NCBI RefSeq assembly: GCF_016765655.2
Contig: NZ_CP086106.1
Location: 1,486,501-1,550,500 of the forward strand
Direction: 5' to 3'
DNA: 64,000 bases
DNA from: Skermanella mucosa
Lineage (GTDB): Bacteria > Pseudomonadota > Alphaproteobacteria > Azospirillales > Azospirillaceae
Under the pieces are notes generated by a model. The model ran no database searches. It was not told the origin of the DNA and was given only the letters and a program-made list of their open reading frames with translations. Within the stretch, counting starts at the first letter, position 1. The number at the start of each line of letters is the position of its first letter. The translations under genes were made by a program, and so were the position numbers. Positions 38,694-45,748 of this stretch are shown in pieces.

Positions 38694-41498
38694 TCACGCT
38701 TCCGGAACCAGCAGCGCGAACGGGAACTTGCCCAGCAGCGTGCCGGCCGGGAAGGCGGCGCCGTCTTCCCGGGGCTCCGCCTCGATCACGGCGTCGGTCA
38801 GCAGGTTGCGCCAGCGACCGGCACCGACCGAGGTCGGCAGAACCACCGCCGTGTCGCCCCAGTCTGGATCGTCCTCCAGCCGGGCTACCAGCCGGGGAAC
38901 CGCGACGATCACGCTGTCGCCTTCATGGATCCTTGCGAAGGCGCAGACCTGGTCGGCCTTGGCGCCCTGCGCAGCCAGCGCCTCGTAGGAGCCGTGGGCG
39001 AACAGCTCAGGCTTCTCGGTGCGCAGCTTCAGCGCCTGCCGGGTCACCGCCAGCTTGACGACGCCGTCCTGCCAATGGTCGAACAGGGCGGGCAGGCAGG
39101 CCGGGTCCTGCTCCAACTCGCCTTCCAGCTGGTCGAGCGCCCGCTGGTGCATGTCATAGTCCACCGGCAGCCGGTTGTCCGGATCGACCAGGCTGAGGTT
39201 CCACATCTCGGAGCCCTGGTAGATGTCGGGCACGCCCGGGACGGTCAGCTTCAGCAGCGCCTGCGCCAGGCCGTTGAGCGCGCCCAGCTTCGCCACCCGC
39301 GCCTGGAACGGCACGAAGGCTTCCAGGAAGGGACTGCGGCGGGAGACGTCCAGGCATTCGTGCAGGAAGGCGATGACCGCCTCCTCGTACTCCGTGTTGG
39401 GGGCGGCCCAGGTCGAATGGACCTTGGCCTCGCGGATCGACTTGATCATCGCGCCCTCGACACGACCGATATAGCCCTTCAGCAGGGCCGCGTCCGGCTG
39501 CGTGACGTTGGTCAGCTCGGCCGGCCATGACCCGACCAGGAGCTGGTATAGCAGGTACTCGTCATTTTTGTCGGGCGGGGCGGTGCCGGCCATGTCGCCG
39601 CGCCGGGCGCGGATCATCCGGCTCCAGGTGCGGATCTGGCGTTCCCACTCCTCAGGCATCTCCGACAGCACGTTGATGCGGGCGCGGGTGTCCTCGCCCC
39701 GCTTGGTGTCGTGGGTCGAGGTGCCCAGCATCGCGTGCGGCCAGCGCCGCGCCCGATCCGCGTTGGCATGGTGGAAGGCGCTGACGCTGACGCCGAACAG
39801 CTCGGGATGGCCGCCCACCTCGTTGAGGGAGACCAGCCGGTTGTAGCGATAGAACGCCGTGTCCTCCAGCCCCTTGGCCATCACCGGCCCGCTGTACTGC
39901 TGCACCCGCATGGCCAGCCGGATCACGGCGAAACGGCTGTAGCCGCTGCGCGGTTCGGACACCAGATCGCCGGTCAGCAGCGCCTGGAGGAAGTCGAACA
40001 CGCTGGGGTCGGCCGCGTCCACCGCCCGGCGCGCCTGGGCGATGGCCCAGTCGATGTAGCGCCGGTCGCTCTCCGCCGGTGTCGTGCCGTCGATATAGGT
40101 CCGGTAGACCGGGAAGCGGGCGACGATCTCCTTCAGGGCGGAATGAAGGATGTTGTTGGTGAAGTCGGCCGTCCGCCAGTTGGAGCGGGCGATCCGGGCG
40201 GCGTCGCGGGCGAGCACGTTCAGCTCGCTCGCCATCTCGTGCTCCATGATCCGGATCTTGCTCTCGTGGACGATGTCCTCGAAAGACCGGGTCTGGCCGG
40301 TGAACTCCGTGTAGATCCGGTCGAAGGCCTCCTCGGCCGACGCGTCCACGAAGATGCCGCCTACCAGGTTGGTGAACTCGTAGCCGGTCGTGCCCTCGAT
40401 CGGCCAGTCCTCGCGCAGGTGCTCGTGATGCGCCAGGATCTTTTCGACCACCAGATAGAACGGGCGCGGCGCCTTCTCGCGCAGGCGGATGCAGTAACCT
40501 TTGGGGTCCACCAGGCCGTCGATATGGTCGATCCGGATGCCGTCCAGCGTGCCGTCCTCGACCAGGTCCAGCACCAGCCGGTGGCTCAGGTCGAACAGTT
40601 CCGGCTGCTCCATGCGCAGGCCGGCCAACTCGTTGATGTTGAAGAAGCGGCGATAGTTGATATCGTCGGCCGCGACCTTGAAATAGGCGGCGCGCCAGTT
40701 CTGCTGCTGGATCAACTCGTGCAGCGCCCGGAAGCTTTCGGGCTGGCCCGCCGTCCCGGTGAACCGCTTGATGCCCGCCTCGACGGCCTGCGCCACCTCC
40801 GGCTTCTCGGCGACCAGGCTCGCCAGCTCCGCCTTCAGCTCGGAGGCGCGGCGTTCCACGTGGGGCCGGAAGGTCGGCAGCGCGCCGAAGGCGTCGCCCA
40901 GGTTTTCCAGGTCGGGATTGTCGTGGCCCAGGATCTCGGCATAGTTCAGCGGGCAGATCGGCAGCTTGTGGGTGCCGTACGCCCAGACCGCGAAGCTGCC
41001 TTCCTCCGGATCGAACTTCAGCGCCAGGTCGCCGTCCTCAAGCACCTTGCCGTACTGGTCGCCCAGGAACGGGATCAGCAGCTTGCCCTGGAGGAAGCGG
41101 CGGTCGGGATCCCAGTCGATGTCGAGATATCCGGCATAGGCCGAGTCCTGGCCCCATTCCAGGATGTTCAGCCACCAGGCATTGTCGGAACCGCCGACAC
41201 CCATATGGTTGGGCACGAAGTCCACGATCTGGCCCAGCCCGGCCTGTTTCAGGGCGGCGATCAGCCGCTTGAAGCCTTCCTCGCCGCCCAGCTCCGGGTT
41301 GATGGCGTTGTGGTCGACGATATCGTAGCCGTGCGTGCTGCCCGGCCTCGCCTTCATGTAAGGCGAGGCATAGAGATGGCTGACACCCAGTCGGGCCATG
41401 TATCCGGTCAGCGCGCTCGCGTCGTCGAACTGGAAATCCTTGTTGAATTGCAGGCGGTAGGTTGCCCGCGGAATGGGCGTGCCGCTTGAATCATTCAT
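38694..41498 (-). CDS. treY: Malto-oligosyltrehalose synthase
   Basis: A 934-residue GH13 enzyme. It opens with PRATYRLQFNKDFQFDDA, the usual TreY start, followed by YASPYMKARPGSTHGYD, DFVPNHMG, the nucleophile Asp in GIRIDHIDGLVDP and the acid Glu in YLVVEKILAHHEHLRED. TreY turns the reducing end of malto-oligosaccharides into a trehalose unit; TreZ then frees trehalose. treZ is not in the window. Its ATG overlaps the stop of the upstream maltokinase-MalQ gene (ATGA at 41495-41498), tying its translation to that enzyme. Confidence 0.92.
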   Translation of the reverse strand: MNDSSGTPIPRATYRLQFNKDFQFDDASALTGYMARLGVSHLYASPYMKARPGSTHGYDIVDHNAINPELGGEEGFKRLIAALKQAGLGQIVDFVPNHMGVGGSDNAWWLNILEWGQDSAYAGYLDIDWDPDRRFLQGKLLIPFLGDQYGKVLEDGDLALKFDPEEGSFAVWAYGTHKLPICPLNYAEILGHDNPDLENLGDAFGALPTFRPHVERRASELKAELASLVAEKPEVAQAVEAGIKRFTGTAGQPESFRALHELIQQQNWRAAYFKVAADDINYRRFFNINELAGLRMEQPELFDLSHRLVLDLVEDGTLDGIRIDHIDGLVDPKGYCIRLREKAPRPFYLVVEKILAHHEHLREDWPIEGTTGYEFTNLVGGIFVDASAEEAFDRIYTEFTGQTRSFEDIVHESKIRIMEHEMASELNVLARDAARIARSNWRTADFTNNILHSALKEIVARFPVYRTYIDGTTPAESDRRYIDWAIAQARRAVDAADPSVFDFLQALLTGDLVSEPRSGYSRFAVIRLAMRVQQYSGPVMAKGLEDTAFYRYNRLVSLNEVGGHPELFGVSVSAFHHANADRARRWPHAMLGTSTHDTKRGEDTRARINVLSEMPEEWERQIRTWSRMIRARRGDMAGTAPPDKNDEYLLYQLLVGSWPAELTNVTQPDAALLKGYIGRVEGAMIKSIREAKVHSTWAAPNTEYEEAVIAFLHECLDVSRRSPFLEAFVPFQARVAKLGALNGLAQALLKLTVPGVPDIYQGSEMWNLSLVDPDNRLPVDYDMHQRALDQLEGELEQDPACLPALFDHWQDGVVKLAVTRQALKLRTEKPELFAHGSYEALAAQGAKADQVCAFARIHEGDSVIVAVPRLVARLEDDPDWGDTAVVLPTSVGAGRWRNLLTDAVIEAEPREDGAAFPAGTLLGKFPFALLVPEA

Positions 41499-44400
41499 TT
41501 GAAATCGGCCTCTTTGGCGGAGGAAGTGAGCGGGCGGGCGTCCTGGAAGATCCGTGCCAGCGCGACAACGCGCGGGTTGCCGGTTAGTTCCTCAAGGCTC
41601 AACGACTGCTTGCGGCGCCAGTTGGGATGCTGGTCGGTGGTGCCGGGCAGGTTGACCTGATGCGGCTCCTCGGTCAGGTCGTCGATCTGGACCATCGCGA
41701 TACCGGAACGGGTCTGCGCCAGGAACCGGTGGACCGCCTCCGACAGCGCGTCGTCATAGTCGGACCCGACCGAGAAGCCGGCGGGCAGGTCCAGCCCGGC
41801 CGCCTTCAAGGCGTCCAGCAGCGCCTGCTTGTCGCGGGCGCGCAGGTTCCGCTGGTTCCCGGCCTCGTCCGCGCCGGGATAGAGGCCGTGGCGCTCCTTC
41901 AAGCCGATATCGTGCTCCTCCCACCAGCCGCGGAGCGTCGCCAGGTCGTGGCTGCCCACGGTCGAGAGCGCCAAGTGCGGATAATCCTCCGGCCCGACGA
42001 AGCCACCGCCCTCGGCATATTCGAAGAAGACCACCCGGTAGGACAGGATGCCGGCCTCGGTCATGCGTTCGCGGAAGCCCTCCGGCACGGTGCCCAGGTC
42101 CTCGCCGACCACCAGGCAGCGGTTGCGCTGGCTCTCCAGTGCCAGGATACCGACCATGTCGTCCAGCGGATAGGAGACATAGACTCCCTCGGACGCAGGC
42201 TTCCCTTCCGGAATCCAGTACAGGTGCTGGAGCGCCATGACATGGTCGATCCGCAGGCCCCCGGCGTGGCGCATGTTGGCCCGGACCAGGTCGATGAAGC
42301 CGGCGTAGGCCTGGTCGCGCAGGGCCTGCGGGTCGAACGGCGGCAATCCCCAGTCCTGACCGGCCGGGTTGAACAGGTCTGGCGGCGCCCCGACATGGGC
42401 CGACGACACCACCAGCCCGGGGTTCGCCCAGGTCTCGGCGCCGCTGCTGTCGGCGCCGACCGCCAGGTCGCGGTAGAGGCCGACCGCCATCCCGCGCGCC
42501 CTGGCCTCCGCCGCGGCTTCAGCCAGCTGCTCGTCGGCGACCCACTGGGTCCAGGCGTTGAAGTCGATCCGGTCGGCATTTTCGCGGGCGAAACGATCCA
42601 CGGCCTCGCCGTCGGGCTTGCGGTATTCCGGCGGCCAGGTGCGCCAGTCCGCCTTGTCCGGCGCGAAATGCGCCCGCAGCGCCAGGAACCGGCAGAGCCG
42701 CTCCAGCGGTTCGCCCTGCTCGCGGCGGAACCGGGCGAAAGCCTCGCGGCGCTCCGCCGAGGCCCGCTCCTTGAACTGCTGGAACAGCACCTCCAGCACG
42801 GGCAGCTTCAGGGCCGTCGCCTCGGCGTAATCGACCAGGTCGGCGTCGCGGGCGGCCTGAAGCCTGCGCTTGAACTCCGGCGCCTCCATCAGCACCCGGC
42901 ACCGTTCGCATCCGGCATAGTCCGGGACCTTGACCGGATCGATGTAGAGGATATTCAGGTACAGCCGGCTCGCCGGGGAATAGGGGCTGGCATGGTCCGG
43001 ATTGTCCGGGAACATGGTGTGCAGCGGGTTCAGCCCGATCACCGACGCGCCCAGGTCGGCGGACTTGCCGACGAAGCTCCTGAGGTCGGCGAAATCGCCG
43101 ATGCCCCAATCGTCACGCGACCGCAACAGATAGAGCTGGGCCGAGATGCCCCAGATGCCGGCGCCCTGCGACATCTCGGGCGGCAGATGGCAGCGGTCCG
43201 GAGTCACGATCAGCGGCATGGTCGCCTCGGCCATCCCGCCGCCGCCTACCGCCAGGGTATGGTATCCGGGGGGAAGCTCCAGCCCGATCGCCAGCCGCCG
43301 GCGCTCCACCGCACGCCCGGCATGCTCGCCGGTATGCAGCAGTTCCAGGTCGGAGAACTTGACGGTGCCCTCGTGCCGCCGACCGCCTTCCTCCGACACA
43401 TGCCAGCGCAGCTGGGCGCCGCTGGGAGCGAAGGAGAGCGGCACCTCGATCCGCCGCCGGCTGGCCCGGACCACCGAAACCGGCGGCAGCGGCCGGCCCA
43501 GGTCGGCCTGTTCCAGGGCCTCCAGCCGCGCGCTCGCGGCGCGCTCGTCGGGCACGTCGTGGCCCAGGGCGGCCAGCATGTTGCGCTTGGCGCTCTCCGA
43601 CATGCGGACCATCTGCCCGGCGGCGTTCTTGTATTCCAGCTCGATGCCGGCCCGCTCGGCCAGCTTGTCGAGCGCCGGCGTGGCCGATGCGGCGGGGGAG
43701 GCCGGCACCCCGTCCAGCAGCTCCGTCACGCCCTTCAGCGGGATCGCGACCCAGTCCGGCCGGTTCGCCAGCTCGTAGCCGACCTCGTAGAGGGCCTTCT
43801 CGAACAGGAACAGCCGGAGCAGGCTGTCGGCATGGGCGGGGTCCTCGGGATAGCCGGGCGCTCCCTTCACGGCCTCGCGATAGGCATCCAGGAAGGCCGC
43901 GTTGACCGTGCGCGTCCAGTCCTCCGGCCGGTCCGGCTTGGCGGTGGCCGCGGCGTAGGCGAAGGAGCGCAGCATGCCCGCCACGTCGCGGAGCGGCGAA
44001 TGCTTGGCGCGCCGCTCCGCCAGGGGGCGCATCGGTTCGCCTTCGAAATCGATGATGAAGACGTCGCCGCGCGACACCAGGACCTGACCCAGGTGGTAGT
44101 CGCCGTGCAGCCGGGTGCGGCTCACCTCCAGATCCTTGGGCGCCAGCGCGTCGAACCGTCCCATCAGCTCGTCCCGCCGGGACAGCAGTCTCTCGGCATC
44201 GCCGCGCACCTCCGGGGACAGGCTGGGCAGGGCGCGTTCCAGCGACGCCAGGGTGGTTCGGGCCATCGTCCGCACCGCCTCGACCCACTCGCCGATCGTT
44301 CCGTTTTCGACCTGTTCGGCTTGGAAGGCCGGATCGTCGGTCTGCGATGCCAGCGCGTGGTGCATCTCGGCGGTCCGCCGGCCCAGGCGGCCGACCAGGG

Positions 44401-45178
44401 CCAGCAGCTCCGGATCGGGTGGCGTCGTTTTCGCCCGCTCCAGCACGTGCCCCCAGGCGTCCTCCGCGTCCGGCACCAGCGCCTGGAGAACGCACAGCGC
44501 CACCGGCTGGCCGGAGGCGTCGGTCTGCTCGATCGTGCCGAGCAGGGCTGGGGTGTTGGCGAAGCCGGCCGTTCCGGTCAGAAAACGACCGACCTCCACC
44601 TCCGGGTGGAGGCCGGGCTCCAGCTTGCGCAAGCCCTTCAGCATCGCGCTGGAGCCGATCCGGATCGAGGTGTTGGACTGCTCCGTCCGGGAGCGCTGGA
44701 TGGCGGGTGCCGCTTCCGCCGTCACGCCGTTCCCCCCGCCGCTTTCCTCCGCCATTTGAGCCAGCAGCGCCCGCACGAAGGCATCGCGCGCGAAGGCGTC
44801 GATCAGCACGCCGGTGCGTCCGTCCTGGCGTACGCTTGCCAGCACCGCCGGGTCGCCGGGATCGGCCCCGCCTTGGCCCGCGCCGTCCCAGACCAGCATG
44901 AGCGGCAGGAAATAGCGCTGCTCGGCCCCTCCCGGCGGTTGCACGCGGAGCGTCGCCAGCAGCGCCGGCCCCTCGTCGGTCCGGACCTCCTCGCCCGCGG
45001 CCAGGGTGACGGAAGGCGTGCCGGCATCCTTGGCGCCGTACCAGCGATGGCGCAGCAGATATCCGGGCAGGACATGCTTTTGCAGCGTTTCGAGGGCCTC
45101 GCCGCGGAGGACGCCCATCACGGTACGGTCGGAAGAAGCCAGATCGATCGAAGTCGGAGCGGCGGCTGAGGTCGCCAT
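41495..45178 (-). CDS. Maltokinase-amylomaltase (4-alpha-glucanotransferase) fusion
   Basis: A 1227-residue two-enzyme protein. Residues 1-490 are a maltokinase: cap domain opening VLPGYLLRHRWYGAKD, catalytic loop HGDYHLGQVLVSRGDVFIIDFEGEP and the C-terminal helices with KALYEVGYELANRPDWVAIP. A short Ala/Pro linker (PASPAASATPA) leads to residues 500-1227, a GH77 amylomaltase: GIWGISAQLYLLRSRDDWGIGDF, the nucleophile Asp in GGLRIDHVMAL, the acid Glu in VVGEDLGTVPEGF and Asp in TVGSHDLATLRGWW. Both active sites look intact. Maltokinase makes maltose 1-phosphate for GlgE; MalQ transfers glucan chains. An AAGGG site supports the ATG at 45178 rather than GTG at 45187. Confidence 0.88.
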   Translation of the reverse strand: MATSAAAPTSIDLASSDRTVMGVLRGEALETLQKHVLPGYLLRHRWYGAKDAGTPSVTLAAGEEVRTDEGPALLATLRVQPPGGAEQRYFLPLMLVWDGAGQGGADPGDPAVLASVRQDGRTGVLIDAFARDAFVRALLAQMAEESGGGNGVTAEAAPAIQRSRTEQSNTSIRIGSSAMLKGLRKLEPGLHPEVEVGRFLTGTAGFANTPALLGTIEQTDASGQPVALCVLQALVPDAEDAWGHVLERAKTTPPDPELLALVGRLGRRTAEMHHALASQTDDPAFQAEQVENGTIGEWVEAVRTMARTTLASLERALPSLSPEVRGDAERLLSRRDELMGRFDALAPKDLEVSRTRLHGDYHLGQVLVSRGDVFIIDFEGEPMRPLAERRAKHSPLRDVAGMLRSFAYAAATAKPDRPEDWTRTVNAAFLDAYREAVKGAPGYPEDPAHADSLLRLFLFEKALYEVGYELANRPDWVAIPLKGVTELLDGVPASPAASATPALDKLAERAGIELEYKNAAGQMVRMSESAKRNMLAALGHDVPDERAASARLEALEQADLGRPLPPVSVVRASRRRIEVPLSFAPSGAQLRWHVSEEGGRRHEGTVKFSDLELLHTGEHAGRAVERRRLAIGLELPPGYHTLAVGGGGMAEATMPLIVTPDRCHLPPEMSQGAGIWGISAQLYLLRSRDDWGIGDFADLRSFVGKSADLGASVIGLNPLHTMFPDNPDHASPYSPASRLYLNILYIDPVKVPDYAGCERCRVLMEAPEFKRRLQAARDADLVDYAEATALKLPVLEVLFQQFKERASAERREAFARFRREQGEPLERLCRFLALRAHFAPDKADWRTWPPEYRKPDGEAVDRFARENADRIDFNAWTQWVADEQLAEAAAEARARGMAVGLYRDLAVGADSSGAETWANPGLVVSSAHVGAPPDLFNPAGQDWGLPPFDPQALRDQAYAGFIDLVRANMRHAGGLRIDHVMALQHLYWIPEGKPASEGVYVSYPLDDMVGILALESQRNRCLVVGEDLGTVPEGFRERMTEAGILSYRVVFFEYAEGGGFVGPEDYPHLALSTVGSHDLATLRGWWEEHDIGLKERHGLYPGADEAGNQRNLRARDKQALLDALKAAGLDLPAGFSVGSDYDDALSEAVHRFLAQTRSGIAMVQIDDLTEEPHQVNLPGTTDQHPNWRRKQSLSLEELTGNPRVVALARIFQDARPLTSSAKEADFK

Positions 45179-45211
45179 CGGGTGCACCCTTGGTTTGTAC
45201 GGTGTCCGCCC

Positions 45212-45236
45212 AACCCTCAGGGTGCGGTTAAGTTCC
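45212..45236 (-). promoter_or_regulatory. Candidate EcfG (general stress response) promoter for the maltokinase-malQ-treY operon
   Basis: Minus-strand GGAAC (45236-45232), 16 bases, then GGTT (45215-45212), close to the alphaproteobacterial EcfG pattern GGAAC-N16/17-CGTT. The start codon follows 34 bases later. One mismatch in the -10 element keeps this tentative. Confidence 0.4.
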
Positions 45237-45358
45237 GGTCGTCAACCTCACCTCCTGACCGACCTCTACTCCTTCGTTGTCATCGACCGCGGGCTTTCGG
45301 CGTTAGAGTGTGCTTTCGCGGCGGATCGCATGGTAGCGCCGGTGAGCGGGAGGCTTTT

Positions 45359-45748
45359 ATGACGGCAGGCTGCAAGATTTTGATCGTCGAGGATCAGATG
45401 CTGATCGCGATGGATCTGGAGCGGCTGATCGAGGGAATGGACTATACGGTCTGCGGTCTGGCGCGCACCCGGGCCGAGGCCCTGCGGCTCGCCGAGGAGC
45501 ATCGCCCCGACTTGGTCGTGATGGATGTCCGGCTGGCCGACGGCAGCGACGGCATCGCCGCCGCGCGCGAGCTTCGCCAGCGCTTCGACATCGGCGCCCT
45601 GATGATCTCCGGCCAGATCGACGCCGCCCAGGCGGAGGAGGCCGAGGCGGAGATCTTCCTGCGCAAGCCGTTCGAGCCGCGCCAGCTTCGCCGCGCCATC
45701 GCCGACGCGCTCCGCCTGCGTCGGGTAGACCCCGGCTCGGCGGCCTGA
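45359..45748 (+). CDS. Single-domain response regulator
   Basis: A 129-residue receiver domain with no output domain. ILIVEDQMLIAMDLERLIE holds the acidic pocket, VVMDVRLADGSDGIAAA the phosphoacceptor Asp, and FLRKPFEPRQL the conserved Lys. This sequence type resembles the stand-alone receivers paired with HWE-family kinases in alphaproteobacteria. Its partner kinase is not adjacent. A GGGAGG site lies just before the ATG. It is divergent from the maltokinase-malQ gene. Confidence 0.83.
   Translation: MTAGCKILIVEDQMLIAMDLERLIEGMDYTVCGLARTRAEALRLAEEHRPDLVVMDVRLADGSDGIAAARELRQRFDIGALMISGQIDAAQAEEAEAEIFLRKPFEPRQLRRAIADALRLRRVDPGSAA

Follow-up and report, generated by a model that had tools for sequence, protein, structure and literature searches.

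Maltokinase (Mak) is known from fusions with the enzyme that supplies its maltose. In TreS-Mak (TreS-Pep2), the partner is the trehalose isomerase TreS, the kinase is C-terminal, and the product feeds GlgE, as described in the available text of three papers (PMC8084333, PMC7935935, PMC11046441). The open-access literature, as far as its available text goes, also describes GlgB-MalQ and GlgA-GlgB fusions. In GlgX-MalQ (NF011082) and in the GlgB-MalQ of Neisseria, the amylomaltase MalQ is joined to another alpha-glucan enzyme (PMC11046441, available text); no kinase is part of these proteins. With separate proteins of P. aeruginosa, MalQ and TreS/Pep2 converted maltohexaose and ATP to maltose 1-phosphate in vitro, and the available part of that report concludes that MalQ could bypass TreY, TreZ, and TreS (PMC8084333).

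The window analyzed here is a 64,000-nucleotide stretch of the genome of the soil bacterium Skermanella mucosa (contig NZ_CP086106.1, positions 1,486,501 to 1,550,500). In it, the kinase is N-terminal and its partner is MalQ, both in one polypeptide. Because the P. aeruginosa proteins already showed it in the available account (PMC8084333), the coupling of MalQ to maltokinase is not new; what is new is its joining in one chain. The preliminary description of this locus knew of no such enzyme, and we found no description of Mak-MalQ or Mak-TreZ-MalQ in the accessible text of the open-access PMC literature (subscription papers were outside the scope). The available text of the Skermanella genome paper (PMC11767975) treats trehalose genes in general terms only.

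One reading frame for maltokinase and MalQ

The minus-strand frame from 41495 to 45187 is open for 1230 codons without an internal stop. It encodes Mak at the N-terminus and a full-length MalQ of family GH77, connected by a short linker rich in Ala, Pro, and Ser; the coordinates are collected in Table 1. The start given in the preliminary description, the ATG at 45178, is likelier than the GTG at 45187, because AAGGG lies eight bases upstream of the former. The long frame on the plus strand, 41627-45169 (1180 aa), was interpreted as an antisense reading of GC-rich coding sequence, since codon-position GC picks the minus frame, which carries the family matches. A scan of 45100-45500 for promoters and terminators found none.

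Table 1. Features of the mak-malQ locus (positions within the window; residues in the numbering from the GTG)
Feature	Coordinates	Strand	Details
treY, maltooligosyltrehalose synthase	38694..41498	-	934 aa; ATG overlaps the fusion stop by 4 bases (ATGA)
mak-malQ fusion gene	41495..45178	-	ATG start, 1227 aa; GTG at 45187 gives 1230 aa
MalQ GH77 catalytic domain	41603..43138	-	residues 684-1195; D981, E1029, D1081
MalQ N-terminal beta-sandwich domain (PF21226)	43199..43489	-	residues 567-663
Linker GVPASPAASAT	43679..43711	-	residues 493-503, 11 residues; mostly in low-confidence model stretch 494-501
Maltokinase domain	43715..45145	-	residues 15-491, TIGR02457
Maltokinase key residues	inside 43715..45145	-	P-loop EQSN 169-172, HGD D363, Q368, DFE D380, maltose contacts K464, Y467, Y471; roles from PMC4306142 (available text)
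AAGGG, possible ribosome binding site	45187..45191	-	8 bases before ATG 45178

As judged from the sequence, the fusion of Mak and MalQ in one polypeptide is confirmed as real, short Ala/Pro linker included, as the preliminary description had claimed. A frameshift or gene boundary, which that description named as possible grounds against its claim, was not seen. An assembly or frameshift artefact was rejected: the same frame is present in five of five genomes of the genus. Full-length matches were found in the own genome, at 74-95% identity in all four others of the genus, and at 58% identity in Azospirillum sp. SYSU D00513 (G041), which belongs to another genus. The match in S. aerolata (G078) has one TAG marked inside; this TAG sits at the very end of the match, since the reading frame of that gene stays open over 1235 codons. 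These full-length matches argue against an artefact, as do dN/dS values below 1 for each domain compared. Between the window and the four other genomes of the genus, dN/dS points to purifying selection on both halves: 0.185-0.339 for the Mak half, 0.127-0.401 for the N-terminal part of MalQ, and 0.079-0.185 for the GH77 domain in all four comparisons. The linker, cut as 12 codons, gave 0.3-0.9 in three comparisons with two to six changes each, and the fourth gave no value.

The Mak half scores 423.9 bits with TIGR02457, above the cut-off of 375.05; Pfam Mak_N_cap gives 21.9 bits against a gathering score of 22. The MalQ match covers residues ~502 to the end and comprises the N-terminal beta-sandwich and the GH77 barrel. 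TIGR00217 matches residues 637-1209 with 467.1 bits (cut-off 205.65), Pfam GH77 (PF02446) gives 407.5 bits (E 1e-121; threshold 25), and MalQ_N gives 63.2 bits (threshold 24.1); with NF008274, the MalQ PRK11052 equivalog, the score of 713 bits lies below the curated cut-off of 806. The PDB sequences matched by this half are the 4-alpha-glucanotransferases 4s3p and 5b68. D981, E1029, and D1081 align with E. coli MalQ positions 448, 496, and 548, as counted on the alignment; D448, E496, and D548 we take to be the catalytic Asp/Glu/Asp. The triad is kept in all 45 MalQ sequences compared.

Among NCBIfam models, the MalQ half scores highest with the MalQ-TreY fusion NF011077 (821.6 bits), and the separate treY product gives 1211.9 bits with the same model; both remain below its whole-protein cut-off of 2148. 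Unlike in that fusion, the MalQ of the window is joined to Mak, and TreY is encoded by the adjacent, overlapping gene. The preliminary description presented MalQ as an enzyme of maltodextrin metabolism. For the MalQ of the window this needs correction: it is not a lone maltodextrin enzyme. It belongs to a MalQ subfamily whose genes usually accompany treY, and most relatives have TreZ between Mak and MalQ within a single protein.

Distribution of domain architectures

Both domains in one protein, for which the preliminary description proposed a search across genomes, were found repeatedly in the family (82 genomes; a search of the order returned the same 82). The Mak-MalQ form without TreZ is present in six of the 82, in two lineages: Skermanella, where the own genome and all four others of the genus carry it (including S. 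stibiiresistens, G081, and S. aerolata), and Azospirillum sp. SYSU D00513. A Mak-TreZ-MalQ polypeptide of ~1,900 aa (1783-2048 codons) is encoded in one frame in 40 of the 82, counted as Mak and TreZ in frames of the same length; 36 of these 40 are among the 45 genomes of the genus to which Azospirillum belongs. This polypeptide has the same Mak and MalQ subfamilies in the same order as the window, with TreZ, absent in the window, in between; the middle domain was identified as TreZ by 722.9 bits versus 538.8 with curated models in the one protein scored. Beyond the 40, two genomes (G020 and G045) have a Mak-TreZ-MalQ gene cut by contig ends or a frameshift. In G045 (L058:2748-8365), Mak and the start of TreZ are in one frame and the rest of TreZ with MalQ in another, from a frameshift or sequencing error.

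An architecture scan and the best 80 of 549 relatives revealed further arrangements. Among these best 80, Mak-MalQ followed by TreY was present in S. stibiiresistens, S. aerolata, and Azospirillum sp. SYSU D00513, and Mak-TreZ-MalQ in many Azospirillum and also in Belnapia and Siccirubricoccus. Plastoroseomonas has Mak-TreZ, MalQ, and TreY; Geminicoccus has Mak and TreZ-MalQ, with no treY found on its 9-kb contig; Telmatospirillum has Mak, MalQ, and TreY as separate genes; and one MAG has Mak and TreY. TreS-Mak accounts for most of the remaining loci of this set, and several of these lie near a MalQ-TreY fusion. The gene treY follows Mak-MalQ in six of six loci. For Mak-TreZ-MalQ, the downstream flank was read at 18 loci, and treY follows in 15; no treY was found beside the fusion at the other three (L063, L064, and L085).

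Among the 302 records matched in the plasmid collection, 12 (11 from Azospirillum, one from Indioceanicola profundi) align over 80% or more of the fusion query, always as two separate pieces. Outside the genus, a Mak match was found in 36 of the other 383 genomes of a class sample of 385 (E 1e-60) and in 55 of the other 397 of a phylum sample of 398 (E 1e-50). No Mak-MalQ occurred among all Mak loci of these class (36) and phylum (57) samples, which share some genomes and are thin, having caught few genomes of the relevant families; their loci are TreS-Mak, or Mak without TreS in its frame. Four small (~2 Mb) alphaproteobacterial genomes (L193, L196, L199, and L201) have glgE, a separate mak, and glgB side by side, with TreS absent from the ~4.5 kb read. 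Two other loci (L231 and L232, from G637 and G653) have a separate Mak beside GlgE and GlgX; the same genomes also have a TreS-Mak next to GlgB, with a MalQ nearby.

Phylogenies and the history of TreZ

A quick tree placed operon-type Mak and TreS-Mak on opposite sides of one branch (SH-aLRT 100). The MalQ sequences of these loci form their own clade, separate from the second MalQ (SH-aLRT 100), and the one GlgX-MalQ examined falls in a different MalQ clade from that of the window. Fused TreZ copies group together (92) and apart from the standalone TreZ of Skermanella; one standalone TreZ (L156) falls among the fused copies.

In the joined Mak, MalQ, and TreY tree (23 rows, seven of them lacking TreY), the Azospirillum group has Skermanella as its sister (96/97) and includes Azospirillum sp. 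SYSU D00513. A single origin of the TreZ-less form was rejected (AU p = 4e-40). The AU test was picked after the trees were seen, which weakens it; nonetheless, the log-likelihood drops by 199 units when all TreZ-less sequences are constrained to one clade. The natural interpretation for SYSU D00513 is that TreZ was lost. For Skermanella, loss seems likelier to us than late gain; by change count, three losses fit as well as two gains and one loss. The linker of SYSU D00513 (ADAGPEVADR...) is similar to the Mak-TreZ linker of Azospirillum; this likeness is expected under late gain of TreZ too, and the linker therefore does not fix the direction.

A separate TreZ lies beside the second MalQ in five of five genomes of the genus and in SYSU D00513, that is, in both TreZ-less lineages. 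This is no strict rule, as three genomes (G054, G066, and G067) have both a fused TreZ and a separate one of that score range; most genomes of the Azospirillum genus have a second, lower-scoring TreZ elsewhere.

Companion genes

The preliminary description suggested looking for glgE, treS, and glgB elsewhere in the genome, and all three are present. TreS-Mak, followed by GlgB, is a gene separate from the fusion, which lacks the TreS N-terminal domain. A standalone TreZ lies beside a second MalQ, with GlgX nearby; GlgA was also found, as were two GlgP over the cut-off. With these genes, a glycogen supply, the trehalose route, and a sink for maltose 1-phosphate are all encoded. Because the genome holds a TreS-Mak and another MalQ, the fusion may be redundant. 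GlgE makes up the C-terminal part of a 1142-residue protein (L053:3179-6607) that begins with an extra GH13-like domain of ~480 residues; frames of similar length hold most of the family's GlgE matches.

Across the 82 family genomes, Mak (TIGR02457) and GlgE (GlgE_dom_N_S) were each found in 57. Two Mak matches occur in 49 genomes, in one of which (G001) the second is below the cut-off and degenerate. The other 48 carry a second, non-TreS Mak above the cut-off, and every one of them has GlgE; such a Mak is absent from all 25 genomes that lack a GlgE match. GlgE does not need the second Mak, because nine genomes (one of them, G031, a much-fragmented assembly) have GlgE without one over the cut-off. 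Kinship confounds this association, since 39 of those 48 belong to one genus and five to another.

Proposed function of the fusion

We consider it reasonably probable that the gene makes a bifunctional MalQ/Mak enzyme, in which Mak traps the maltose released by MalQ as maltose 1-phosphate for GlgE. The gene, its domains and residues, purifying selection, the relatives, and the companion genes were seen directly; we infer both activities, the direction of flux, a benefit of tethering, and, for Skermanella, loss of TreZ over its late gain. Salvage of short maltodextrins and commitment of maltose to GlgE are proposed because the activities reported for P. aeruginosa in the available text of PMC8084333 here share one chain next to treY. 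The MalQ half would disproportionate the short maltodextrins left once GlgX, TreY, and TreZ turn glycogen into trehalose, yielding glucose, maltose, and longer chains again usable by TreY. The tethered Mak half would convert maltose and ATP to maltose 1-phosphate, which GlgE would add back to alpha-glucan, a route into the GlgE pathway without need for TreS. Tethering would give equal amounts of the two enzymes and high local maltose at the kinase, pulling the reversible MalQ reaction. The fusion would be the TreZ-less form of the Mak-TreZ-MalQ polypeptide, with TreZ supplied by a separate gene.

On this proposal, a single polypeptide would contain an entry into the GlgE pathway that bypasses TreS and has so far been shown with separate enzymes of P. 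aeruginosa, and Mak-MalQ is one version of a modular enzyme that connects the breakdown of glycogen with trehalose and with the rebuilding of glycogen. The natural variants (Mak-MalQ, Mak-TreZ-MalQ, Mak with TreZ-MalQ, Mak-TreZ with MalQ, and separate genes) would allow tests of how fusion affects trehalose and glycogen flux.

It is possible, though not probable, that the halves are joined for co-expression in a fixed ratio only, each functioning as it would by itself, with no kinetic gain, as a by-product of a fixed mak-(treZ)-malQ-treY operon order. The separate or differently joined genes of Telmatospirillum, Geminicoccus, and Plastoroseomonas would fit this, as would the variable linker and the low confidence of its prediction. 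However, Mak-MalQ is kept as a fusion throughout the genus, at the identities given above. An AlphaFold2 model made with 24 rows has a mean pLDDT of 83 and a pTM of 0.63, so that the relative placement of the domains in it is uncertain. Model numbering starts at protein residue 30; pLDDT falls below 50 at model residues 465-472 (protein residues 494-501), inside the linker, and in six other short stretches. The model fits two folded enzymes on a flexible tether and lends no support to a fixed channel; the low-confidence linker favors simple tethering over the channeling that the preliminary description put forward as possible.

A more far-reaching form of the bifunctional reading seems doubtful to us: that Mak-(TreZ)-MalQ with TreY is a single-chain switch sharing the products of glycogen breakdown between trehalose and maltose 1-phosphate, with real transfer of maltose from the MalQ site to the kinase, and that the TreZ module was removed twice independently, retuning the system from the trehalose route towards TreS-independent glucan synthesis by GlgE.

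Residues of the maltokinase half

Three of the four PDB sequences matched by the Mak half are maltokinases (5jy7, 4o7o, and 4u94), and the fourth is a glucosamine kinase. That relative indicates that the family has other substrates and, together with the separate clade of operon-type Mak, would allow the kinase to act on another sugar, such as glucose released by MalQ. We regard this as improbable. The TIGR02457 score exceeds its cut-off; glucosamine kinase identity was rejected, as GlcN_kinase gives 101.7 bits against a cut-off of 550. The available text of PMC4306142 gives as key maltokinase residues EQSN of the P-loop, including Ser136, the lysine of AMLK, HGD Asp305, Gln310, DFE Asp322, and DVA; Lys413, Tyr416, and Tyr420 of M. 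vanbaalenii Mak contact maltose, and their mutation practically abolished activity. P-loop EQSN, HGD, Q310, DFE, DVA, and the equivalents of K413, Y416, and Y420 are all present in the fusion. At the level of residues, both active sites thus appear intact, as the preliminary description had it. A catalytically dead scaffold or regulatory domain is highly improbable: decay does occur among relatives (G001, below) and the genome has a second Mak in TreS-Mak, but the fusion keeps all catalytic residues checked and the Mak half is under the purifying selection reported above.

At the 15 Mak positions checked, 24 of 25 operon-type sequences are identical to the window, and five of 18 TreS-type sequences differ, in the P-loop only. 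The lone operon-type exception, a separate gene in G001 (L168:6813-8933), differs at nine of the 15 positions. It falls on the operon-type side of the tree, lacks the catalytic HGD Asp, the Mg-binding DFE Asp, and both maltose-contacting Tyr, and is probably a dead maltokinase.
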